Origin: a virus
Strand: one strand, 5' to 3'
Virus record (IMG/VR): IMGVR_UViG_3300010391_000162
Location: 1 to 23,626 of that record
Length of the DNA stretch: 23,626 nt
Notes under the pieces: model-generated
Told to the model about the DNA's origin: nothing
The model's input: the letters and a program-made list of their open reading frames with translations, nothing else
The model's database searches: none
Shown: in pieces, positions 2,965-23,626 of the stretch
Layout: the number at the start of each line of letters is the position of its first letter
Numbering within the stretch: the stretch's first letter is position 1
Position numbers and translations under genes: made by a program

Positions 2965-4044
2965 ATGAAAAATCAACGGAGCCGCGACCGCCATTCGACT
3001 TTCGCTCATGGTCCTGAGCGTGAGCCGAAGGGCAAGGGAGCGGTTGCTCAAATCAAAAGCAGATTCCTCGCGTTGCTCGGAATGACAGCGGTGCTGACGT
3101 GGTGTCCGGCCCTGCACGCGCAGGGCGTGGAGGGTCTGGGCGGGCAGGACAGTGCCAGCGTGGTCATCACCCGTGCCCCAAATGGCGAACTCCGAACCGC
3201 GAATCCCGAGCTTTATTTTGGCCAGCCGCATCCCTACCACGTCGTGGCGCGGCATCCCAAAGCCGGCTGCGCGGTGACCGAAGAGTGCGGCGAAATCTTC
3301 ATGGATTATTGGGCCAAGAATCTCCGCACCACCGCCGGGACCAACTGGCAAGCGGATGTGATGTGCAAGCTCAGCGCGCCTCCGGCGCAGTGCAATTACC
3401 TGGCGCTGACCAATACCGCCATCACTCCGGCCATTGCCGACACCACGCTTTCCGGCGAGATCGTGATCAACGGCTTGGAGCGCGCCCAGGCGACTTACAC
3501 CAACACCTCGGCGGGCCTCGCCACGCCTGCCGCGCCTACAGTTACGGTGCGCGGGACCACGGGCGCGGTCAGCTATTGGTACTGGGTGGCAGCCTGCAAT
3601 TCGCAGGGCTGTACGGTGCTCTCGACCGCAGGCACCACCACCACGGCCAACGCCACGCTGTCGAACACCAACTACGACGATGTGTCCTGGACGGCGATTA
3701 CCGGCGCGACCAGCTACAAAGTCTGGCGGACGACGTCGGCCAGCGCGCCGACGGGAACCGTCGCCAACAAAGTTCAGAACGCCTCGTTCTGCAACGGGAC
3801 CGCCTGCCGCGCCTACGACATCTCGAACACGCTGGATACGGATACTGTGGCGGCGTCGCAGCAGACCTTTGCGGGCGTCTTAACCCTGGTGAAGACCTGG
3901 ACGGCGACGGCGACGCAATCGGCGCAGGCTTTTGGCGTGTTCAACGCATCGTCGGCCGGGACGCTGTGCTTTGAGGGCACATTCACGCAGGCCACGCTGA
4001 ACGCCAACGACACGTTGCAGTTGACCGAGACGATCTATTTCTAA
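2965..4044 (+). CDS. Phage virion structural protein with inserted FN3-like domain
   Basis: The protein is 359 residues from ATG 2965, preceded by AAGGAGA at 2954-2960; the upstream ATG 2941 lacks such a site. The N-terminal 50 residues are repeat-derived and end in a hydrophobic segment plus AHAQ, which looks like a signal peptidase site. The body resembles a siphovirus structural domain: LALTNTAITP, a DTTLSGEI strand, then near the C-terminus VFNASSAGTLCFE and a final LTETIYF strand. Between these halves, about residues 187-265, lies an FN3-like module (PAAPTVTV, SYWYWVAACNSQG, ITGATSYKVWR). The same module occurs in the spike at 18422-21376. Probable role: a virion surface or tail-associated protein. 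Confidence 0.65.
   Translation: MKNQRSRDRHSTFAHGPEREPKGKGAVAQIKSRFLALLGMTAVLTWCPALHAQGVEGLGGQDSASVVITRAPNGELRTANPELYFGQPHPYHVVARHPKAGCAVTEECGEIFMDYWAKNLRTTAGTNWQADVMCKLSAPPAQCNYLALTNTAITPAIADTTLSGEIVINGLERAQATYTNTSAGLATPAAPTVTVRGTTGAVSYWYWVAACNSQGCTVLSTAGTTTTANATLSNTNYDDVSWTAITGATSYKVWRTTSASAPTGTVANKVQNASFCNGTACRAYDISNTLDTDTVAASQQTFAGVLTLVKTWTATATQSAQAFGVFNASSAGTLCFEGTFTQATLNANDTLQLTETIYF
2997..3037. repeat. Dispersed repeat inside coding sequence
   Basis: This is a CTGAGCGTGAGCCGAAGGGC-type element of a common short interspersed family, read in frame near the N-terminus of the 2965-4044 protein. It is related to the element at 904-931. Confidence 0.5.
3058..3089. repeat. Dispersed 'GATTCCTCGCxxxGCTCGGAATGACAGC' family repeat, copy 1
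   Basis: This element, about 32 bp long, is nearly identical to 6712-6743 and related to 14271-14302 and 15100-15137. Here it is in frame and encodes SRFLALLGMTA, the first half of the hydrophobic export-like segment of the structural protein. Confidence 0.85.
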
Positions 4045-6504: not shown

Positions 6505-6705
6505 ATGAAAGTCAGATTCAAACAGGAAGTGGAAGCGCCGGTGATCAAGATCAGCGGCGCGGGGGGATATTCGCGCGAGTTCAAGCGCGAGGAGCAGCCC
6601 TTCGAGGCGACGGAGCTGGAAGCCGCGGTGCTCGAATCCAGCGGGCTGTTTGAGACAGTTCCGGAGCCACTGCCCTTCGCGGCTGCGGAAAAAGACGCGG
6701 CGTAA
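6505..6705 (+). CDS. Small phage tail-region protein (66 aa)
   Basis: The start is taken at ATG 6505 (MKVRFKQEVEAPVIKI). The frame is open from 6463, but that extension reads through repeat-like sequence. The product has a short beta start, SREFKREEQPFEATELEAAVLESSGLFE in the middle and an acidic, proline-containing end. Small proteins of this pattern often precede the major tail protein in siphoviruses. I know no defined function. Confidence 0.6.
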   Translation: MKVRFKQEVEAPVIKISGAGGYSREFKREEQPFEATELEAAVLESSGLFETVPEPLPFAAAEKDAA

Positions 6706-6711
6706 AACAGA

Positions 6712-6743
6712 AGCAGATTCCTCGCTGCGCTCGGAATGACAGC
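6712..6743. repeat. Dispersed 'GATTCCTCGCxxxGCTCGGAATGACAGC' family repeat, copy 2
   Basis: This copy is nearly identical to 3058-3089 but lies in the intergenic space before the major tail protein gene. It adds no coding sequence here, and the tail gene has its own Shine-Dalgarno further downstream. Confidence 0.85.
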
Positions 6744-12877: not shown

Positions 12878-12986
12878 CCCAGGCCTTAAGGGCTGGGCTG
12901 GGGAAAAGGGATTTTTACGGTAACCCAGGGCTTAAGCCCTGGGCTAGAGAAAAAGATTTTATCTAGCCCAGCCCTTAAGGGCTGGG
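12878..12986. repeat. REP-like cluster: three palindromes with linker hairpins
   Basis: Palindromes lie at 12878-12897 (imperfect), 12924-12943 (perfect, identical to 292-311) and 12967-12986 (perfect, CCCAGCCCTTAAGGGCTGGG), spaced 46 and 43 bp apart. GGGCTAGA/TCTAGCCC flanks join the second and third as a long hairpin. The cluster fills the whole gap between the tape measure gene and the next gene and ends 9 bp before its ATG. Confidence 0.85.
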
Positions 12987-12995
12987 ACATAAAAA

Positions 12996-13613
12996 ATGGC
13001 AGCGAGCGACACATTTCCGGTAGACGCGGACTACGCCATTGAGCTGACGCGGGAGGCGAACGTGCTGCGCGGGCGGGTGGAGTCGGCGCGGGAATATTTC
13101 CGAGAGAAAGCGGCGCCGCGCCGCGTGGTGGCGCTGGTATTTCATGGACGTCCCAGGGCCGATTGGTATTCCATCCAGAATTTTCGGCACAAGCTGCGGA
13201 CCGACTTCTTCACCTGGTGGGACAAGGAATCGGCCAGCGGCGCTTTTACCGGACGGAAGTATTCCATGTATTTCCATTCCGAGCCGGTGGTCTCGATCGT
13301 CGGGAATGAGAATTACGATATCCGCTGCGAGCTGATTGAGGCGGTAGGAGTGGCCATGGCGCTCTATCCCAGCTTCACGGGGGGCAATTATCCTTCGGTA
13401 AACATCCCGGTCGCCGGTGCGCAAGACCTGGGCGCCAACGGCAAGCTCTGGATTTATGGCGGCTATGGATACCGCGTGAATGGCACATTCACGAGCATTT
13501 ATTTGGACGAGCTTTTGACCGGCGGGGAGAACCCCAAGGAAGACGTAGTGCTGGGATTGCATCGCGTGCGAGTGGTGGGCGGGACGCCCACGAGCCTGGA
13601 CTATCTGATCTGA
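12996..13613 (+). CDS. Distal tail / gpM-like tail tip protein
   Basis: The product is 205 residues from ATG 12996, directly after the tape measure gene. It is beta-rich: VVALVFHGRPRADWYSIQNFRHKLRTDFFTWWDKES, then YSMYFHSEPVVSIVGNENYDIRCELIEA. A strand series with an FFxWWD turn and a closing xxYDIxxELxE strand resembles the distal tail proteins that follow the tape measure gene (lambda gpM, GTA distal tail protein). It has no signal peptide. The gene ends in a dispersed repeat. Role: forms the ring at the end of the tube and carries the hub. The name depends on order more than on motif. Confidence 0.55.
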   Translation: MAASDTFPVDADYAIELTREANVLRGRVESAREYFREKAAPRRVVALVFHGRPRADWYSIQNFRHKLRTDFFTWWDKESASGAFTGRKYSMYFHSEPVVSIVGNENYDIRCELIEAVGVAMALYPSFTGGNYPSVNIPVAGAQDLGANGKLWIYGGYGYRVNGTFTSIYLDELLTGGENPKEDVVLGLHRVRVVGGTPTSLDYLI

Positions 13614-13699
13614 AGCAGAGGAGGCAGAGGAGGCAAACGATGCAAAGGAAACGATCCAGCCGGTCCTATGCTTCTTCTGCTTCCCATGTTTCCTCTGCT
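13612..13699. repeat. Dispersed inverted repeat with AGCAGAGGA/TCCTCTGCT ends
   Basis: AGCAGAGGAGGCAGAGGAGG-type sequence on the left and CTTCTGCTTCC...TTTCCTCTGCT on the right bracket the start of the next gene. The left arm supplies GGAGG (13629-13633) 6 nt before ATG 13640, and the inside is translated as a Ser-rich N-terminus. Confidence 0.65.
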
Positions 13700-14056
13700 A
13701 CGGGTTTTGCCCTGACGCCGCCGGACGACGGCTTCGCGGAATTCAAAGCAGCCTACCCGCCGGAAGGGTGGACGCATCCGGAGCGCGCGCGGGCGGGTTG
13801 GAAGAAGCTGGCGCCGTCCGCGGAGTTGCGCAAAAAGATTCTCATCATGCTGGAGATTCAGAAAGCATCGCGACGCTGGGCCGACTCACAATTCATCCCC
13901 AACCCGGCGAGCTATCTGAACGGGCGCTACTTTGACGACGATCCCAAAGCCTATCCGCGGAAAGTGCTCACGATGGACGACCGCTGCCCGGACTGTCATC
14001 AGACTTTCCGGGTACACGCCTGGTTGCCGGGAGGCGAGAAGGTTTGTCCGAAGTGA
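13640..14056 (+). CDS. Stand-alone replication-protein-type C-terminal domain with a cut zinc ribbon
   Basis: The product is 138 residues from ATG 13640. Residues 1-20 are Ser-rich and derived from a dispersed repeat. Residues 28-115 match a domain I know from the C-terminus of phage replication initiation or helicase-loader-type proteins: FAEFKAAYP, then ARAGWKKLAPSAELRKKILIMLE, then RRWADSQFIPNPASYLNGRYFDDDP. The end is CPDC-x15-CPK and then TGA, where a zinc ribbon would be expected to finish CPxC. A replication-type domain in the tail-tip operon is unusual; it may be a displaced or reused fragment. The frame stays open after the TGA into the next small ORF. Confidence 0.65.
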   Translation: MQRKRSSRSYASSASHVSSATGFALTPPDDGFAEFKAAYPPEGWTHPERARAGWKKLAPSAELRKKILIMLEIQKASRRWADSQFIPNPASYLNGRYFDDDPKAYPRKVLTMDDRCPDCHQTFRVHAWLPGGEKVCPK

Positions 14057-14098: not shown

Positions 14099-14269
14099 AT
14101 GTTCACGCTGATTTACAGGGGCAAGGGGGAGACTTTTTTGCACTCTCCAACGCACCAACGTTTCCCCGCAGGAACCATCTTGCGGAATCCGGCGGGCTGG
14201 TTTGGAGTCCTGGAAGACGACGGAAACTGGAGCTGGTACGAGCAGAGGCTGAAGCGGGGTCGGAAGTAA
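14099..14269 (+). CDS. Small ORF (56 aa) between tail genes
   Basis: ATG 14099 opens a 56-residue frame: MFTLIYRGKGETFLHSP, then FPAGTILRNPAGWFGVLEDDGNWSWYEQRLKRGRK. It is in the same frame as the preceding gene, separated only by the TGA at 14054-14056 and 14 sense codons. Composition (several W and F, strand-like pattern, balanced charges) looks like a real small protein rather than noise. No clear Shine-Dalgarno stands before ATG 14099; AGGGAG at about 14072 is too far, and would better fit an ACG codon at 14081. I do not recognise a family. Confidence 0.45.
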   Translation: MFTLIYRGKGETFLHSPTHQRFPAGTILRNPAGWFGVLEDDGNWSWYEQRLKRGRK

Positions 14270-14270
14270 A

Positions 14271-14302
14271 AGCAGGTCCCTCGCTCCGCTCGGGATGACA
14301 AC
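14271..14302. repeat. Dispersed 'GGTCCCTCGCxxxGCTCGGGATGACA' family repeat, copy 3
   Basis: This is a variant of the elements at 3058-3089 and 6712-6743, lying just after the stop of the 56-codon ORF. A strong AAAGGAGG (14303-14310) follows it immediately. Confidence 0.8.
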
Positions 14303-15085: not shown

Positions 15086-17514
15086 AAGACAAAAGAAAAA
15101 GCAGGTCCCTCGTCGCTTCGTTCCTCGGGATGACAGCGGCCCTGTTGGTGGCATGGATGCACGTTAGCAATGAGACGGATATTCTGACGGCCAGTTACGG
15201 ACGCCCTGTGGCGCTGGCCTATGGACGTCACGTTGTGGGTGGCAACGTCATCCTGAAAGATGATGGCGCCGGAGACCGCACGGTGGTCCTGATTGCCTTG
15301 GGGGAGGGCGAATGGGACGGCGTGGAGCAGCTCTGGGTGAACGGCCTGGAAGTGGACCTGGAAGCCTCCGACGTTTTCCATTTCCATAAAGGCCTCACCG
15401 GCCAACTCAGCGCGCCGGGGGCGCTGGAGCCTGAAGGGATTGGATCGCTTTATCCGTTCGATACGGACGGCGACCAGAAAGCCGACGGCTTCACGCCTCC
15501 GGCAATTCAAGGCCTGACGTTTTCGAAGACCGCGCACCTGGCGCTCTCGATTCCCTTCGATGTCTATTCTCCCGACGCGGAGATTTCCGTGGTGGGCATT
15601 TACCGTTGCCGCAAAGTGCGCATCTTCGATGCTGCAGGGGTGCAGATTGCCTACCGCTGGGAAGACAACCCCGCCTGGCAGATCGCCGACCTGCTCACCT
15701 CCGTGCGCGGCCTATCCGACTCGCGGATTGACTGGGCATCATTTGACGCGGCCGCAACCTATTGCGATACGCTGATTGATCCGCTGGGCGATGGCAGCCA
15801 GGTTGCCCGGTTCGTCTCCAACGTGGCGTTTACCGAGGACCTGGATTTTGACCAGGGGCTTTTGGCCCTCCTTTCTACGTGCCGCGGGCATTTGCTGGAC
15901 ACCGACGGCACCATCAAGCTGCGCATTGACCAGGCGCGCGCCAGCGTCTTCGATTTCCAGGACCATGCCACCAACGCGAGCCCGCCGAACATCATGGAGG
16001 GGACCTTCAGCGTCTTCTACCGCGACACGCGCGAGACGCCCAATCGCCTCGAGTTGATCTTCCGCGACGTGAACAACGATCACGCCATCCTGACAAAGAT
16101 TTGGAACCACCAGGCGCAGCAAACCCGCACCGGACGCACGATTGTGGCGCTGCTGCATCTGGGAAACATGCCGCAGCATCAGGCGGAGCGCCTCGGGAAC
16201 TATCTGCTGATCCGGGCCATTGACAACAATCTGCATTGCCGCTTTGCGGGGCGCGCCGACTCGCTCAAAGTGATGCCCGGCGACGTCGTCCGAGTGAAGC
16301 ATGACGCCGCGCCATGGTCGCAGCAGCAAGCGGGCGCAGCGCTTTACAAAGATTTCGAAGTGCTGGAAGTTACCGACAACCCGGACGAAACGCGGGAATA
16401 TTTGTGCCGGACGTACAGCGCGGCGACCTACCCCGACACGGCCGGGCCAGCGCAATCGCTGATTGAAACCGACTTGGGGCGCTCCAAGCCTGTGCCGCCA
16501 CTGCCGCCGCACAAATGGTGGTTGGCGGCAACCCTCGCCGGTGACTTCGAACTGCGCTTTGCCGTCCCGAAAAATACAGACTACCGCGTGGGCGATTTGA
16601 CCTGCCTGATTGACGATATGCGCAGCCGCATCTATAACGGCGGCGAAGACCTGGTGGGTTACACGCTGTTGAACATGCCCGGCGGAATGAATCCCGGCGA
16701 CACCGAGATCGTAGTGAACGATTCTTCGATTTTCAAAATAGGCCAGTACATCACTATAGCGCTGGAAATCCTGAACGTCGTTGGACCGGGAACGCCAGGG
16801 AATCCTCCCACCTCAAACACCATCGAGGTGGCGCGGGCGCAGAAAGGGACGGAAGAGACGCCGGCGGGCGTTGCCAATGATAATGCCACGGTGCGGCCGC
16901 TGATCGAGCGTATCTTCCATTTCGTGCTGGAGCCGGGCTGGTCGCTCTCCCATCCCACAGACGACCTGGCCAGCGGCGATTATCGCAGAGAAATCTTCCG
17001 ACCGGGCCAGCTGATGATTCTGCACGCCGGCTTGGTCTTGACCGACGGGCGCGGCCTGAAAAGCACGCCGGTGGAAATTCCGATGACGGAGTTTGGCAGC
17101 GGGGCCGCTCCGGGAAACACCATTGCGGGGATGTTGCCGGGCTTTCTCGTAGTCCAGGGGGAAAGTCAGGAAGTACAGATTACGGGGGAACTGGAAGTGG
17201 CGGAAGACCTGGCGGCGCCGCTGGTGCTGCCCGTGGACCGCTGCATTGCGATGGTGTACGCCTACATGGAAGAAGCTCCGACGGGCGCGGACGTGCGGTT
17301 CCGCATGAAGCTGAACGGCACGGTGATTCAAGACTCGCTCTTCGGCCCGACCGTGGACGTGGAAGGGCGCATCCCCGCAGGTGAATTGGGGACCGGCGTT
17401 TTCTGGCTGGGCGAGTTTTGGGGGAACGTGAGCGAGCGCGAGCTGACGATTGAAATCCTGGAAGTCGGGGCGGGCTTTCCGGGAAAGAACCTGACGGTGA
17501 TAGTGAGGACTTAA
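15079..17514 (+). CDS. Central tail hub protein, gpJ-like (tail tip / host specificity)
   Basis: The product is 811 residues from ATG 15079. Later starts at ATG 15130 and ATG 15157 are plausible because the first 26 residues are encoded by dispersed repeats. The conserved part begins SNETDILTASYGRPVALAYGRHVVGGNVIL. Central features are WQIADLLTSVRGLSDSRIDWASF, then TLLSTCRGHLLDTDGTIKL and AERLGNYLLIRAI, then VMPGDVVRVKHD, all typical of gpJ/GTA host-specificity hub proteins. The C-terminal 300 residues are beta-rich and probably face the fibres. Its stop overlaps the next start as TAATG. Role: central hub at the tail tip, contacting the host and opening on infection. Confidence 0.8.
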   Translation: MVKDKRKSRSLVASFLGMTAALLVAWMHVSNETDILTASYGRPVALAYGRHVVGGNVILKDDGAGDRTVVLIALGEGEWDGVEQLWVNGLEVDLEASDVFHFHKGLTGQLSAPGALEPEGIGSLYPFDTDGDQKADGFTPPAIQGLTFSKTAHLALSIPFDVYSPDAEISVVGIYRCRKVRIFDAAGVQIAYRWEDNPAWQIADLLTSVRGLSDSRIDWASFDAAATYCDTLIDPLGDGSQVARFVSNVAFTEDLDFDQGLLALLSTCRGHLLDTDGTIKLRIDQARASVFDFQDHATNASPPNIMEGTFSVFYRDTRETPNRLELIFRDVNNDHAILTKIWNHQAQQTRTGRTIVALLHLGNMPQHQAERLGNYLLIRAIDNNLHCRFAGRADSLKVMPGDVVRVKHDAAPWSQQQAGAALYKDFEVLEVTDNPDETREYLCRTYSAATYPDTAGPAQSLIETDLGRSKPVPPLPPHKWWLAATLAGDFELRFAVPKNTDYRVGDLTCLIDDMRSRIYNGGEDLVGYTLLNMPGGMNPGDTEIVVNDSSIFKIGQYITIALEILNVVGPGTPGNPPTSNTIEVARAQKGTEETPAGVANDNATVRPLIERIFHFVLEPGWSLSHPTDDLASGDYRREIFRPGQLMILHAGLVLTDGRGLKSTPVEIPMTEFGSGAAPGNTIAGMLPGFLVVQGESQEVQITGELEVAEDLAAPLVLPVDRCIAMVYAYMEEAPTGADVRFRMKLNGTVIQDSLFGPTVDVEGRIPAGELGTGVFWLGEFWGNVSERELTIEILEVGAGFPGKNLTVIVRT
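15100..15137. repeat. Dispersed 'GGTCCCTCGxxx...CTCGGGATGACAGC' family repeat, copy 4
   Basis: This copy is in frame and encodes SRSLVASFLGMTA at the N-terminus of the gpJ-like protein, forming most of a hydrophobic segment. It is related to 3058-3089, 6712-6743 and 14271-14302. Confidence 0.8.
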
Positions 17515-18425
17515 TGGCTCATCAGCCGCAAGAACATCGCGGATGGCTGAAGCGGATCGTGGACGAGACCTGGGGGGACTTCTTCAACATCGTCGCCCCG
17601 GCGTCGCCCGCAGCGGGCCGTGTACGCCTCTATGCTGAGGGCGACTGCCTGAAGTTCAAGAAATCCAGCGGCACGGTGATTAATCTCTGCACCGGGGGGG
17701 CAACTCCGGGTCCGGGAGACTGCTGCGTGAATCCGATTGGGACGGCGGGGAACGAGCGGCGCAGCGGCCTGATTACCATTGACGCGAATGGCGGGAAATT
17801 CCAGGTTTTTGGCGACACGGATTTTCCCAATGATAGTTACAACACCAGAACTTTCAACGTGCCGGATTCCGTCTTCAAGATGCCATACGTGGTTTACAAG
17901 GGCGCTAGCACGGCCGACGGCTATGCGCAATTTGCAGGACGATATAACTGGCGGACGCTCACCAATCTTTATGTCGGCATCCTGGCGCGATTCAACCCGA
18001 TCACCAGCACACGTCTTTGGTTGGGAGTTACCAGCCTTGATTCCGTGAACTTCCAAACCGAGGACAATGTGATCAAACTTTATGTCCAAGACGCCGCGAT
18101 GTTCCGTTATTCCGTTTCGGCCGGGGACGCAAATTGGAAGTGCATTGTACAGGCCGGGAATAGCGGCGGGCTGGATCCGGCCATCGCGGATTCCGGCGTG
18201 GCCCCGGACACCAACCCCCACAAATATGAAATCATCTTCGACGACAAGTCGAGCCCCAAAAAAGTCATCTTCAAAATTGACCATACGGTCGTGGCGACTG
18301 TGAATCCCCCCAGGGCTTATGACACTTTCGCTCTGAATCAATGGATCTCGACTACGCGAACCATCTCGGGAACACAGCCGGAATTCGATTTTGCATTCTG
18401 GTACTTGGAGGCGGACACGGCATGA
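17514..18425 (+). CDS. Tail fibre-type protein, lectin/jelly-roll-like body
   Basis: The product is 303 residues from ATG 17514, coupled to the hub gene by TAATG and to the next gene by ATGA. The N-terminal 30 residues contain a WLKRIVDETWGDFFNIVAP helix. PASPAAGRVRLYAEGDCLKFKKSSGTVINL, a motif common at the start of phage fibre proteins, follows. Residues 90-300 are beta-rich with regular aromatic strands (LYVGILARFNPITSTRLWLGV, KYEIIFDDKSSPKKVIFKIDHTVV, FDFAFWYLEADTA), similar in pattern to lectin-like or concanavalin-type sandwiches. Probable role: fibre or receptor-binding accessory at the tail tip. No family name is certain. Confidence 0.65.
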   Translation: MAHQPQEHRGWLKRIVDETWGDFFNIVAPASPAAGRVRLYAEGDCLKFKKSSGTVINLCTGGATPGPGDCCVNPIGTAGNERRSGLITIDANGGKFQVFGDTDFPNDSYNTRTFNVPDSVFKMPYVVYKGASTADGYAQFAGRYNWRTLTNLYVGILARFNPITSTRLWLGVTSLDSVNFQTEDNVIKLYVQDAAMFRYSVSAGDANWKCIVQAGNSGGLDPAIADSGVAPDTNPHKYEIIFDDKSSPKKVIFKIDHTVVATVNPPRAYDTFALNQWISTTRTISGTQPEFDFAFWYLEADTA

Positions 18426-21376
18426 AAAAAACAGTTATCAGTTGCAAGTGGCGAGTGCAGAGCCGCGCGCGCCAGCAAGCGGTGGCGCGGTTGATCATCA
18501 TCGCGGTGATAGCCACCGCTCCATTACTGTCGCGGCTCGGATACGGCCAGTCCCCGGCGCTGACGACGGTGAAGGACACGGTCTACATGGGCGCGGCCGC
18601 GCCCGGCTCGGGGAATCCCGTGGCAAGCGGGACGGTAGTGATTTCCTGGCAGCCACTTCTGGACGCGGCGAACAAGCCCATCTTCGGCGGCACGCGCACC
18701 TACACGCTGACGAATGGCGCGCTGGCCGTCTCCCTGGTGCCGAATGCCGCGGGGACTCCAGCCGGAACGGCTTACACGGTGCGCTACTACCAGTCCGGCG
18801 TGGCCTTTCGGGAAGAGTTCTGGGTAGTGCCGGCAAGCTCGCCCATTGCATCCCCTGCCGCGCCTGTCGTAACCCAGGCCGGAACGCCGGGGACGACGAC
18901 GTATTACTACTGGGTGCTGGCGCGGAACGCGACCGGAGAAACGCTGATTGGCCCTTCGGGAGTGACGACCACTTCCAACGCCACGCTGAGCGGAACGAAT
19001 TACAACATTGCAGACGTTGCGGACGTGAGCGGCGCGACGGGTTATCGCTGGTTCCGCACCACCACGGCCACGGCGCCCGTGGTAGGAAGCTGCAACTGCC
19101 AGGTCACGGGCTCGCCGACGGCCGTCAGCGTCATCAACGACCAGACGAATACGTTGATCGCGGGGACCATTCCCACGGTGAATGACACCGACCCGAAAAC
19201 CCTGGCGCAAGTGCGGGTAGCTTTGCCGCCGTCGCCCACCGCGGCGTTTGCCGCCAGCCAGGTAACAGGGACGGGCATTGTGGCGAACCCCACGGCGACG
19301 CAGACCATTACGGCGCCGATAACTTCGGGGATTCCGCTCCAGGTGAAAGGGCGCAGCGGGAACAGCTCCAATGTTGCGGAGTGGTATGACAATCAAGGCA
19401 CGCCGGAACTCCAGGCATGGCTCGCGGCCGGCGGGGATTGGTGCGCGCAGGATTTTGGCAACATCAAAATTGCCGCTTGCTTTACAGGCGCAACTGCGGG
19501 CGCGAAGATGATCGCCGCCATTGCGGACCTACCTTCGGCTGGCGGCATTGTGGACGCGAGAGGGCTGGAGGGCGCACAGATCATCTCGGCGGATATGTTC
19601 AGTGGCGTGACAAAGCCGGTGAATCTCCTTCTGGGACACGCTACTTTTACGCTCTCAGTCACCCAAAACATTCCCAACAACGTGGCAATTGAAGGCCAGG
19701 GAAAAGGCAGCACCATCCTCAACTGGACCGGCTCGACCTCTGGAACCGCGCTGAATATCGGAACAAGCGCCACTCGATCCAGCGTCAGGCATTTGCAACT
19801 CACCACGGGACAGGCGGGAACCACCAAGGCAGTCAACGTGGCGCAGGGCGTGGATATCCTCCTGGACGATCTCCTCATCACTGGCGCCAGCGGCACGACT
19901 GGATTCAATCTCGCTATCAACATTACGGGCAACGGAGCGGCGGCAACGTCGAACAACGTGAGCGTCTTGAACAGCAGGATTGAGAATTATACGGGAACCG
20001 GCATTGGCGTGGATCACGCGATTCAGACGCACCTCGTCAATCTGGAGCTCAACTCCAATCTGAGCAACATCCTGTACAACGGCCTGCTGCTGGATACGGG
20101 GGTCAGCGGGCTTTTTCTGGAAGGGGTTTCGATAGGCTACGGTTTGCACGGCCTGGTTATTCAGGATACGGACCGCGGCGGGACTGGTGAGGCCCCCATA
20201 CATCTATTCTTCTCAAAGTTCCTTTCCGACACCACTTCCGGCGGCGATGGAATCTTGTTCGGCGCGACCCTTGCCACGAGCTACGTCAACGCCCATTTTA
20301 CCGATGTTTGGGCTGCCGGCGCTGGACGAAACAACGTAAACGCCCAAGTAACCGCGGGGGCGGTAGGCATTAAGATTTCCGGCGGACGCCAGATTTTCTT
20401 TGTTGGCGGGCGCATACGGAGCAATGACGCGGACGCCATAAAGATTGACGATGCGGACGTTCGGGATGTGTGGATCGAGGGCATGAATATCACGGAAAAC
20501 AATCAGGCCAACGGCGCGGATGCGCATGGCGTCTATGTCACCGCCGCAGCCACGAATCTCTCCTTCCTGAATAACAACGTCAGCAACCTTCCCAGCGGCA
20601 ACATGAAGTACGGTGTCAAGACTAGCGCCGTGAATGCCGATGAGCTGGCAATCATAGGAAATGATTTCACGGCGTTGGTTACCGGCGGTATTTCCAACTC
20701 CAGCACCGGCGACTTCGTGGAGGCGTTTAATAAGCCGAACGCCGAAATCAGAACCACGGGTTCCGGGGCGTGGAACATCGGTTTTGATTTCGCCGGGACA
20801 AGCACTCTGTACAAGCAGTTCCGGACCGCGCATGCCGCCGGGAATGTTCCCTCGCAACTGAATGTGGGTGTGGCCGACGGCGGCTTTGGCGGGATGCAGG
20901 TCAAGGATATTCGGAACGGAGCCAACACCTTCAACGATCAATCTGTGGAGATTCACACCGCAGAAGGTGGCGTCAGCGCAGGCGTTAGGTTGACGATAGA
21001 CAAAGCGGGCAATGTGAAGGTCGGGAGTGGCACTGCGGCGACGAAGCTGGATCTGGACGGGGCCTTCCGCTCAACCTTAACGACGGTTACGTTCAGCGCC
21101 ACGCCCACCTTCGATGCCAGCCTGGGCAACTCCTTCAAGATGACGCTGACGGCGAACGTGACCAGTTCCACGATCTCCAGTGCGCAGACGGGCGAGTTCA
21201 TCACGCTGCTGCTATGCCAGGACGCAACGGGCAGCCGCACGATGGCCTGGCCCGCGAATCTGAAACTGGCGGGAGGAACCTATACGTTGACTACCACGAT
21301 TAACAAGTGCGATTCCGTAACTGCCCTTTACGATGGAGCTAATTGGTATGAAACCGGAAGAGCGGCGAATCTGTAG
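18422..21376 (+). CDS. Tail spike/fibre with FN3-like and beta-helix domains
   Basis: The product is 984 residues from ATG 18422, overlapping the previous stop by 4 bp. Residues 1-43 look like a signal peptide but are largely repeat-derived. Residues 48-140 (TVKDTVYMG, ASGTVVISW, YTVRYYQSGVAFREEFWVVPA) match an N-terminal domain I associate with Acidobacteriota fibre proteins. About 144-225 is an FN3-like module, homologous to that of 2965-4044. About 380-780 shows the repetitive G-x-N-x-hydrophobic pattern of a right-handed parallel beta-helix. The end (TFDASLGNSFKMTLTANVTSST, CQDATGSRTMAWP, YDGANWYETG) is a terminal domain frequent in phage fibres. Role: receptor binding and possibly polysaccharide cleavage; no catalytic residues could be assigned. 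Confidence 0.75.
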   Translation: MKKTVISCKWRVQSRARQQAVARLIIIAVIATAPLLSRLGYGQSPALTTVKDTVYMGAAAPGSGNPVASGTVVISWQPLLDAANKPIFGGTRTYTLTNGALAVSLVPNAAGTPAGTAYTVRYYQSGVAFREEFWVVPASSPIASPAAPVVTQAGTPGTTTYYYWVLARNATGETLIGPSGVTTTSNATLSGTNYNIADVADVSGATGYRWFRTTTATAPVVGSCNCQVTGSPTAVSVINDQTNTLIAGTIPTVNDTDPKTLAQVRVALPPSPTAAFAASQVTGTGIVANPTATQTITAPITSGIPLQVKGRSGNSSNVAEWYDNQGTPELQAWLAAGGDWCAQDFGNIKIAACFTGATAGAKMIAAIADLPSAGGIVDARGLEGAQIISADMFSGVTKPVNLLLGHATFTLSVTQNIPNNVAIEGQGKGSTILNWTGSTSGTALNIGTSATRSSVRHLQLTTGQAGTTKAVNVAQGVDILLDDLLITGASGTTGFNLAINITGNGAAATSNNVSVLNSRIENYTGTGIGVDHAIQTHLVNLELNSNLSNILYNGLLLDTGVSGLFLEGVSIGYGLHGLVIQDTDRGGTGEAPIHLFFSKFLSDTTSGGDGILFGATLATSYVNAHFTDVWAAGAGRNNVNAQVTAGAVGIKISGGRQIFFVGGRIRSNDADAIKIDDADVRDVWIEGMNITENNQANGADAHGVYVTAAATNLSFLNNNVSNLPSGNMKYGVKTSAVNADELAIIGNDFTALVTGGISNSSTGDFVEAFNKPNAEIRTTGSGAWNIGFDFAGTSTLYKQFRTAHAAGNVPSQLNVGVADGGFGGMQVKDIRNGANTFNDQSVEIHTAEGGVSAGVRLTIDKAGNVKVGSGTAATKLDLDGAFRSTLTTVTFSATPTFDASLGNSFKMTLTANVTSSTISSAQTGEFITLLLCQDATGSRTMAWPANLKLAGGTYTLTTTINKCDSVTALYDGANWYETGRAANL
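18425..18465. repeat. CAGTTATCAGTTGCAAGTGG-type dispersed repeat inside the spike start
   Basis: This short interspersed repeat type is read in frame as KTVISCKWRVQSR at the N-terminus of the spike protein. Confidence 0.5.
18515..18538 (-). repeat. 24-bp dispersed repeat, copy 1 (reverse orientation)
   Basis: This segment is the exact reverse complement of 21873-21896 over 24 bp. In the spike gene it encodes TAPLLSRL, the end of the signal-like segment. Confidence 0.85.
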
Positions 21377-21432
21377 GATTTCCGATTTTTTGTCTGGCCT
21401 GCCTGTTGGCCGCTCCGCGGGCGGAGGACTTG

Positions 21433-22137
21433 ATGAAGAATATTAAAGAGGCGCTGATCTGCGGACTCCTGATTGCCTCCATTGGCTTCGTCCTACAACT
21501 TGGATACCTCGCCAACCGCGCCGAAGAATCATTGAGCCAACTTGATAGTCAGCTCTACTACCAAAACATGATGCTGATCCGGATGGAAGCGCAAACTGCC
21601 CGCGCGATCGCAACCATGGCTTCCGACGTCCACCAGGCCCGGCTCGATCTCCGCCGGCGCAGCGCGGAGTTTTCTTTCCTTGCGAGCCAGGCCCTCCAGG
21701 ACATGCATGACCACCTGGCTGCGGCAAACAGTTCTCTGCAAGGCTCCGCCGTGGCTTGGGTCTATGCGCTCGACCGCGCCGCCAGTGCAATCGAAGCCGT
21801 CGCCGGGCCCGCCGGCCAGATCGAGAGCCAGGTCTCCAGCGCGCTGGAACTGTCCTTCGATTGCGTCCATCAGAGCCGCGACAGTAATGGAGCGGTTGTT
21901 TTCGAGGGGAATCCGGATTGCTTCCACAACCGCTTTGTCGGCGCGGCGCGCGGCATCGAGCAGGCCGCCAAAGCCTGGGGCGACGCCGCCCCGCGCCAGG
22001 CCCAGGCCGCCACCGGTTTGCTGGAGCACGGCGCGCAGGCCGCAGAGCACACGGAGGCCATCGCGCGCGACCTGGCGAACCAGCCCCCGCTGTGGTTCCG
22101 CGCGCTGAAGTTGCTGCGCCGCCTTCGTCCTTGGTAA
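21433..22137 (+). CDS. Membrane-anchored helical protein
   Basis: The product is 234 residues from ATG 21433 with GGAGG at 21423-21427; the TTG at 21406 lacks a comparable site. Residues 5-28 form one membrane segment (ALICGLLIASIGFVLQLGYLA). The rest is mostly helical and rich in Ala, Gln and Glu, with a middle Cys-containing insert (FDCVHQSRDSNGAVVFEGNPDC) that includes a copy of a 24-bp dispersed repeat. The C-terminus is basic (RALKLLRRLRPW). Single N-terminal anchor plus a long helix could suit a spanin, a lysis regulator or a superinfection-exclusion protein; I cannot decide. No endolysin lies nearby. The next gene is the methyltransferase, 57 bp downstream. Confidence 0.55.
   Translation: MKNIKEALICGLLIASIGFVLQLGYLANRAEESLSQLDSQLYYQNMMLIRMEAQTARAIATMASDVHQARLDLRRRSAEFSFLASQALQDMHDHLAAANSSLQGSAVAWVYALDRAASAIEAVAGPAGQIESQVSSALELSFDCVHQSRDSNGAVVFEGNPDCFHNRFVGAARGIEQAAKAWGDAAPRQAQAATGLLEHGAQAAEHTEAIARDLANQPPLWFRALKLLRRLRPW
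21873..21896 (+). repeat. 24-bp dispersed repeat, copy 2
   Basis: Begins GAGCCGCGACAGTAATGG. It is an exact inverted match to 18515-18538, and a diverged third copy lies at 22154-22181. Ends AGCC.. and ..GGCT-like arms give a small stem. Here it encodes SRDSNGAV. Confidence 0.85.
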
Positions 22138-22160
22138 ATCCGAGCCGCAATCCGAGCCGC
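22137..22160 (+). repeat. 12-bp perfect tandem duplication before the methyltransferase
   Basis: AATCCGAGCCGC occurs twice in tandem directly after the previous gene's TAA. The second copy runs into the third copy of the dispersed repeat. Confidence 0.9.
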
Positions 22161-22181
22161 GACCGGCAGGAAGCGGTGGCT
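22154..22181 (+). repeat. Diverged third copy of the 24-bp dispersed repeat
   Basis: Begins GAGCCGCGAC and ends AGCGGTGGCT, with a diverged centre relative to 21873-21896. It lies 19 bp before the pentanucleotide array, in the leader of the methyltransferase gene. Confidence 0.6.
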
Positions 22182-22194
22182 GCGAGAAAACAGT

Positions 22195-23013
22195 TTGAAT
22201 GAGCAGAGCAGAGCAGAGCAGAGCAGAGCAGAGCAGAGCAGAGCAGAGCAGAGCAGAGCAGAGCAGAGCAGAGCAGAGCTTGTCCTCTATCGGGGAGATT
22301 GTCTGGAGATCATGAAGAGCATTCCAGCCGCATCGGTCTCGCTCATCCTGGCGGACCCGCCTTTCGGGATCACCGATTGCAAGTGGGACCGAAAGATTGC
22401 GTTGGAGCCGTTGTGGAGCGAATACAGACGCCTGCTCCAGCCCAAGGGGGTGGTCATGCTCTTTGCCGTGCAGCCGTTTGCTACTGACCTGATCAACGCC
22501 GCTCGGGCATGGTTTCGCTATGAATTCGTCTGGGACAAACGCATCAAGACGGGCTTCCTGAACGCTCATAAAATGCCGCTGCGTCAGCACGAAAATATTC
22601 TGGTGTTCTATCCACACCTGCCGCATTACCGACCGCCGGGCCTGCGGAGATGCCTTCACCACAAAAGCGGGCTGAGAGGGACTGCCGTCTATAGGGGTAG
22701 TTGGAAACAGGAGTGGGTGACAAAGCGCACTGGCTGGCCGTCTACAATCCTGTCGTTTGCGAGCCACGGTTTTCAGAACACGCAGGGGCCTGCCGCGAAG
22801 CCGCTGCGACTCCTGGAGTTTTTCATCCGGACGTACACCCGGCCGGGCGATATGGTCCTCGACAACTGCATGGGCAGCGGCTCCACGGGTGTGGCGGCGC
22901 TGCGATGCGGGCGCCGGTTTGTCGGGATTGAGATTGACCGTGACCGCTGCCGGGGAGCCGGAACTCGCATCCTTCGCTCCCGCGTAGAAGAAAAGCGTGG
23001 GCGAGCGACATGA
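22195..23013 (+). CDS. Site-specific DNA methyltransferase (beta-class N6A/N4C), phase-variable N-terminus
   Basis: The product is 272 residues from TTG 22195. Residues 3-27 are five copies of EQSRA from the GAGCA array. The enzyme proper begins LYRGDCLEIM, has motif IV DPPFG at 54-58, FLNAHKMPLRQHENILVFY in the middle, and the SAM-binding motif I DNCMGSGSTG at 223-232 followed by FVGIEID. DPPF before the G-rich motif defines the beta-type order of N6-adenine/N4-cytosine methyltransferases. No restriction enzyme gene lies beside it, so it is an orphan that may protect phage DNA or alter lysogen gene expression. ATG 22199 in another frame would serve at different repeat numbers. The ribosome site is weak (GAGA at 22184-22187). 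The stop overlaps the next start as ATGA. Confidence 0.9.
   Translation: MNEQSRAEQSRAEQSRAEQSRAEQSRAELVLYRGDCLEIMKSIPAASVSLILADPPFGITDCKWDRKIALEPLWSEYRRLLQPKGVVMLFAVQPFATDLINAARAWFRYEFVWDKRIKTGFLNAHKMPLRQHENILVFYPHLPHYRPPGLRRCLHHKSGLRGTAVYRGSWKQEWVTKRTGWPSTILSFASHGFQNTQGPAAKPLRLLEFFIRTYTRPGDMVLDNCMGSGSTGVAALRCGRRFVGIEIDRDRCRGAGTRILRSRVEEKRGRAT
22201..22279 (+). repeat. Perfect pentanucleotide array, GAGCA x15 plus GAGC
   Basis: Fifteen identical GAGCA units (22201-22275) and a final GAGC (22276-22279) lie in the 5' coding region of the methyltransferase. The array contains no stop and no ATG, GTG or TTG in the forward frames. Because 5 and 3 are coprime, all three frames encode the same pentapeptide in rotated form. 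Each gain or loss of one unit shifts the downstream frame. Confidence 0.98.
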
Positions 23014-23261
23014 CGCCTGAACAAGAGGGCCAACTGGAGCGGATCAAGAGGAATTTCTGCGCGCGCGTGGACATGAAGTACCGCGCTGGCGTCGCCGAGC
23101 ATTTGACCTATCTCGGCGATCTGACGGAGCTGGAGCTGGCAGAGCACGCCATCGGGGAAGCCTTGGACGAGTTCTGCTACCTCACCGCCCTACGCGAGAA
23201 GCTCCTGGCAAGGGATAGGGCAGCACGCGGACAGGACAGTGGGGCACCGCCCGTACCTTGA
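23010..23261 (+). CDS. Small all-helical protein, MazG/DUF5664-like
   Basis: The product is 83 residues from ATG 23010, overlapping the methyltransferase stop by 4 bp. The sequence (ERIKRNFCARVDMKYRAGVAEH, then LAEHAIGEALDEFCYLTALREKLL) has the acidic helix and D/E-x-x-YL pattern of short phage proteins related to MazG-type nucleotide pyrophosphohydrolases or the DUF5664 group. It is too short for a full MazG metal site as I know it, so activity is uncertain. Coupling to the methyltransferase suggests joint expression, so any frame change in that gene could also alter its translation. Confidence 0.5.
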   Translation: MTPEQEGQLERIKRNFCARVDMKYRAGVAEHLTYLGDLTELELAEHAIGEALDEFCYLTALREKLLARDRAARGQDSGAPPVP

Positions 23262-23507: not shown

Positions 23508-23626
23508 CTAACTGTCCGCGGTTCCGCCCGCATAGGCAGCTTGAAACGGGTTCTTGGTCGGGAAGTCTTTCGACTCGGTGTATCCGGTGACATAGATGTT
23601 GCGGGCGCTGTCCAGCGCCAACCCGC
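23508..23626 (-). CDS. 3' end of an SBBP-type beta-propeller repeat protein (partial, host)
   Basis: On the reverse strand a frame entering from the right edge reads GLALDSARNIYVTGYTESKD, then FPTKNPFQ and AAYAGGTADS before TAG at 23510-23508. The ALDSxxNIYVTGYTxSxDFPTxNPFQ pattern is the SBBP beta-propeller repeat, common in large secreted proteins of Acidobacteriota and related phyla. It marks the return to host sequence. Confidence 0.8.
   Translation of the reverse strand, partial: GLALDSARNIYVTGYTESKDFPTKNPFQAAYAGGTADS

Follow-up and report, generated by a model that had tools for sequence, protein, structure and literature searches.

The methyltransferase gene and its surroundings

The window, the whole stretch of DNA analysed here, is a linear virus record of 23,626 bases. 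Near its right end, on the plus strand, lies an ORF (22195–23013, stop included) that encodes an N6/N4 DNA methyltransferase of 272 aa when read from a TTG codon. The product matched PF01555 (E 7.5e-25; 88.6 bits, cut-off 26.7) and PHROG 67 (E 7e-61), and both the catalytic motif DPPF (motif IV, 22354–22365) and the AdoMet-binding motif DNCMGSGSTG (motif I, 22861–22890) were intact in the sequence and in the alignment with homologues. The profile match, together with the DPPF and GSGS motifs, places the protein among the N6_N4 DNA methylases, bearing out the identity proposed in an earlier note on this DNA. Its family predicts that this intact beta-type enzyme would methylate DNA. Sequence relatives with solved structures were CcrM (6pbd), DpnA (5hek), and M.RsrI (1eg2), all beta-class adenine/cytosine-N4 methyltransferases; to our knowledge, none of the three carries a repeat tract. 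The enzyme did not qualify as a type III Mod protein: its core is about 245 aa long and matched PF01555 alone, and no res gene was recognised in the window. A cognate restriction enzyme was likewise not recognised there, so the earlier description of the enzyme as an orphan applies only within the window, the right end of which lies 0.6 kb 3' of the gene.

The 5' end of the ORF is occupied by a perfect (GAGCA)15 + GAGC tandem array (22201–22279, plus strand; 79 bp, period 5, 100% matches, TRF score 158). A letter-by-letter check gave exactly (GAGCA)15 for 22201–22275. The tract amounts to 15.8 copies overall, a value that is the one consensus tract length of a metagenome contig and from which the true length may differ. 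TRF found no other tandem array with at least five copies in the window, and a perfect 79-bp pentamer tract in 23.6 kb cannot be due to chance. The array is free of stop codons in all three frames, encodes EQSRA repeats in every one of them, and joins the methyltransferase core without a gap (ELVLYRGDCLEI..., 22276–23010, as delimited by the alignment and PDB matches). In an AlphaFold2 model (mean pLDDT 70, from a shallow alignment), LVLYR was placed in a strand with a block pLDDT of about 88, and the repeat formed a separate helix outside the core. Because of this arrangement, the enzyme probably tolerates the EQSRA-repeat tag but not the loss of LYRGD.

Both neighbouring ORFs are on the plus strand and lack a family match. 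The upstream ORF (21406–22137, 243 aa) ends 57 nt before the TTG codon, and the ATG of the downstream ORF (23010–23261, 83 aa) overlaps the methyltransferase stop codon (ATGA). This overlap at 23010 suggests translational coupling, so the 83-aa protein would likely co-vary with the methyltransferase.

The window also contains three families of short dispersed repeats: TTCCTCGCnnnGCTCGGAATGAC (3050–3089, 6704–6743, 14263–14302, and 15098–15137), the palindromic CAGGGCTTAAGCCCTGGGCT (112–322 and 12880–12997), and CCGAGCCGCGACnGTAATGGAGCGGT (18508–18542 on the minus strand, 21869–21903 and 22150–22181 on the plus strand). The last of these copies (CCGAGCCGCGAC..GAGCGGTGGCT, 22150–22181) lies directly 5' of the start region. 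All three families are probably of a kind known from Acidobacteriota genomes. At the right edge, a fragment of an SBBP beta-propeller repeat (23511–23624, minus strand; PF06739, E 4e-7) ends at a stop codon; it has the look of host sequence and may mark where a host gene begins to enter the record. No integrase was seen among the ORFs tested in the window. The SBBP fragment and the dispersed repeats are the hints that lend weak support to a prophage status. Amid the tail genes, one ORF (13640–14056) weakly resembled phage replication initiation proteins (PHROG 9474, E 8e-10).

Start codons, reading frames, and homologues

Two potential start codons precede the array in different frames, TTG at 22195–22197 and ATG at 22199–22201. 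When the region was rebuilt in silico with 0–21 GAGCA units, the enzyme (LYRGDCLEI...) was reached from TTG exclusively when n was divisible by 3, as at the present n = 15, and from ATG exclusively when division by 3 left a remainder of 2; with a remainder of 1, both starts were out of frame. Two of the three frames retain an upstream start. At n = 15, the frame opened by ATG 22199 is closed by a TGA at 22313–22315, which overlaps an internal ATG in the enzyme frame (22312–22314). Between 22195 and 22312 this frame has no ATG, GTG, or TTG, and an in-frame CTG lies upstream of the TTG at 22180. The earlier note had placed the array and both start codons correctly to the base, and the simulation reproduced its frame arithmetic. 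It had further stated that no usable start separates the array from LYRGD, that the ATG frame stops at about 22313, and that a start at 22312 would drop LYRGD; the codon search, the TGA, and the position of ATG 22312 within the GDCLEIM-coding sequence agree with each of these statements.

Expression signals around the array were sparse. Shine-Dalgarno energies were weak at both upstream starts (−4.9 kcal/mol for TTG 22195 and −3.0 kcal/mol for ATG 22199). We detected no sigma70-like promoter near or in front of the array and no terminator-like site on the plus strand between the array and the enzyme, and predicted RNA structure at the start region was no better than in shuffled sequences (z −0.5 and +1.4).

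Homologues were compared by aligning six viral proteins and one from a bacterial genome. Aligned homologues start a few residues before GDC, the start of L007 not being resolved, and D35 and C36 were invariant. In the viral homologues, start codons lie 5' of GDC. Not one of 80 viral homologues had a perfect tandem repeat of at least 14 nt in the 150 nt upstream of the core. The earlier note had suggested asking whether other family members lack the array, and it was without a counterpart in all 80. Given this absence, the array was most likely derived in this lineage, where the alignment puts it exactly at the N-terminus. With n = 0, the TTG frame would give MNELVLYRGDCLEI, a normal N-terminus for the family. 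An exact locus search of other viral contigs returned no sister loci, and no relatives were found of the window's tail protein or of its 1011-aa protein (18341–21376). Because no second copy of the locus was found, copy-number change at this site is something we infer.

Short-unit arrays in other phages and genomes

The closest phage case found is a pair of IMG/VR phage contigs, L189 and L195, which are 95% identical over 6.6 kb. Their methyltransferase gene has a GGAAC array just before GDSIEML, with 8.0 copies in L189 (8952–8991) versus 10.0 in L195 (minus strand), and the ATG is in frame in L195 and out of frame in L189. As in the window, a pentamer array immediately precedes an N6/N4 methyltransferase's GD.. 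motif, and the copy number of the array sets the frame. Unlike the window, the pair has a GGAAC unit, an enzyme of another subfamily, a TTGACA 31 nt upstream, and ATG starts in one frame.

GAGCA arrays themselves were found in several other settings. They interrupt C5 methyltransferase and PAPS-reductase-like genes in other viral contigs, and in genomes they precede ORFs resembling acyltransferase, LicD, and type III mod genes, the first two of these labels being read from sequence rather than from a profile search. Acyltransferase, LicD, and type III mod genes belong to classes known to phase-vary, and C5 methyltransferase and PAPS-reductase-like genes also count as typically phase-variable. 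At one locus, GAGCA copy number differed among sister contigs (10.8 in L022, 9.8 in L025, and 24.8 in L029). The longest GAGCA array, with 66 copies over 330 bp, was on the minus strand of L047 from Lactococcus chungangensis.

Many arrays elsewhere begin 31–36 nt after TTGACA, at about +1 of a promoter-like (sigma70-like) site. Of 94 non-redundant GAGCA contexts, 35 had an exact TTGACA 30–39 nt upstream of the array, the distance being precisely 33 nt in 14 cases, compared with 0–3 occurrences in each other 10-nt bin over the 120 nt upstream and 0–1 per bin downstream. The contexts with TTGACA were L013–L015, L018, L019, L022, L023, L025–L027, L029–L031, and many of L033–L148. A −10-like hexamer ended at most 9 nt from the array in 39 of the 94. 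Arrays of GGAAC, AGGAC, GACA, ACGA, and AAGC units kept the same distance (31–34 nt), and a frequent order was Shine-Dalgarno, TTGACA, start codon, −10, array. No TTGACA promoter of this sort precedes the array in the window.

In PAPS-reductase-like genes (L023:2088, L027:966, and L191 on the minus strand) and in C5 methyltransferase genes (L013:74, L015, L026:1621, L031, and L014:2577), differing units occupy a homologous codon. These arrays, of GAGCA, GGAAC, or GACA units, always lie 31–33 nt after TTGACA, as though what is inherited were the site rather than the unit. The spacing after TTGACA might arise if an array is destabilised by transcription that begins on it.

A recurring element of Lachnospiraceae type consists of a Shine-Dalgarno sequence, TTGACAGCCATGCGGAATAGA, a GAGCA array, and then the terminator-like GCTAACTGCGCCCTTTTTG (L018, L030, L044, L045, L056, L094, L103, L110, L127, L137, and others). 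Rfam assigned no family to ten promoter-plus-array loci. The element looks like a repeat leader attenuator of the pil1 type. Terminator-like sequence follows some TTGACA arrays, in keeping with the pil1 attenuator (PMC3894217), but intragenic arrays are at odds with that model.

A candidate translational switch

Two known systems resemble the window most directly, in line with the precedents that the earlier note had named, phase-variable mod genes and lic1A. In Streptococcus suis, a GAGCA(n) tract near the 5' end of the modS DNA methyltransferase gene sets the frame by its length, and both production of ModS and methylation by it occur only with 21 repeats in modS1 or 18 in modS2 (PMC8125046, PMC6265453). 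The window ORF likewise has a simple sequence repeat at its 5' end with a unit that is not a multiple of 3. ModS is, however, a chromosomal type III Mod protein with a central recognition domain, whereas the window encodes a viral enzyme of about 245 aa (PF01555/PHROG 67) with two start codons in different frames, and switching, established for ModS, is presumed here. In the Haemophilus influenzae genes lic1A and lic2A, the tract follows several starts in two frames, so that some expression persists at most repeat numbers; lic1A has three initiation codons in two frames (PMC4019658). TTG 22195 and ATG 22199 similarly provide starts in more than one frame 5' of the tract. The lic genes differ in having CAAT tetramers, in being lipooligosaccharide genes, and in residing on a bacterial chromosome. 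Dixon et al. (2007) reportedly identified the functional lic2A starts by experiment. A ModS-like tract and a lic1A-like double start are already known; the window adds a member that stands out by its phage setting, its different methyltransferase family, and its two starts in different frames.

By analogy with these systems and with the L189/L195 pair, the window probably encodes a phase-variable phage methyltransferase, controlled at translation through slipped-strand changes in the GAGCA tract. The occurrence of GAGCA arrays at typically phase-variable genes elsewhere and the differing counts in L022, L025, and L029 also speak for this reading. The tract separates both upstream start codons from the enzyme's first conserved strand, and mispairing would add or remove whole 5-bp units, each change shifting the enzyme frame. 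An enzyme extended N-terminally by EQSRA repeats would be made from TTG at n = 0 mod 3 and from ATG 22199 at n = 2 mod 3, and n = 1 mod 3 would allow it from neither start. This model supposes that tract length shifts in real populations and that at least one upstream start is used. If the enzyme methylates DNA, virions or lysogens would then differ epigenetically. The switch would have three states if output from TTG and ATG differs and two if only one start is used; the three-state design and the stronger ATG put forward in the earlier note are matters of inference. The observation in that note is confirmed, and its interpretation is partly supported.

The expansion could instead be neutral, slippage having lengthened an array in an unneeded or unexpressed gene where switching is invisible to selection. 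The array may be recent, since the homologues lack it, and the weak start signals also suit this account, but the enzyme is still intact, the array fills precisely the stretch that parts the start codons from the first conserved strand, as it does in modS and the L189/L195 pair, and an upstream start is kept in two of three frames. We regard neutral expansion as unlikely. A true start at ATG 22312 appears considerably more doubtful. The array would then be an untranslated leader, or part of a short upstream ORF ending at TGA 22313, with re-initiation at the overlapping ATG. The ATGA overlap at n = 15 would allow this, and the UCUGGAG before ATG 22312 is the best Shine-Dalgarno match among the gene's candidate starts (−8.0 kcal/mol, within the best 4% of window positions). 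These same letters, however, are codons of the conserved LEIM, and initiation there would remove LYRGDCLEI, including the strand at residues 29–33, which belongs to the predicted core, and the invariant D35 and C36 of GDC, 5' of which the viral homologues carry start codons.

That the tract is an assembly artefact, its real length or presence being different, is highly improbable: the virus record was assembled as a fragment and repeats are prone to collapse, but 79 bp is below the usual read length, the flanks are unique, the array is perfect, and homologous situations occur in independent contigs. We give least credence to attenuation as in Streptococcus gallolyticus, where pil1 and pil3 phase-vary through gain or loss of units in a GCAGA leader (PMC3894217). 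There the array lengthens a leader peptide and controls a terminator before the downstream gene. GCAGA is the GAGCA unit in rotation, and thus of the same pentamer class, but it acts on a leader peptide and terminator rather than on an enzyme's own frame, and the window array continues in frame into the enzyme. A pil1 attenuator was rejected for this array, as both the promoter-like site and a plus-strand terminator-like site between array and enzyme are absent.

Beyond the translational switch that we favour, we advance only tentatively the broader proposal of a three-level phage switch (off, TTG-low, and ATG-high) in which tract length would set the methylation of phage and host DNA. It might exemplify a broader tendency of phages to position arrays of short units at or within genes for DNA modification (L013–L015, L026, L189, and L195).

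Most known phase-variable methyltransferases are encoded on bacterial chromosomes. Should phages carry such enzymes as well, even a clonal population of phage would be an epigenetic mixture. Only some virions would then be shielded from a given host restriction enzyme, and the methylomes of lysogens would differ. The L189/L195 pair, with 8 repeats out of frame and 10 in frame, means that this idea can be tested, perhaps with sequence data already available.
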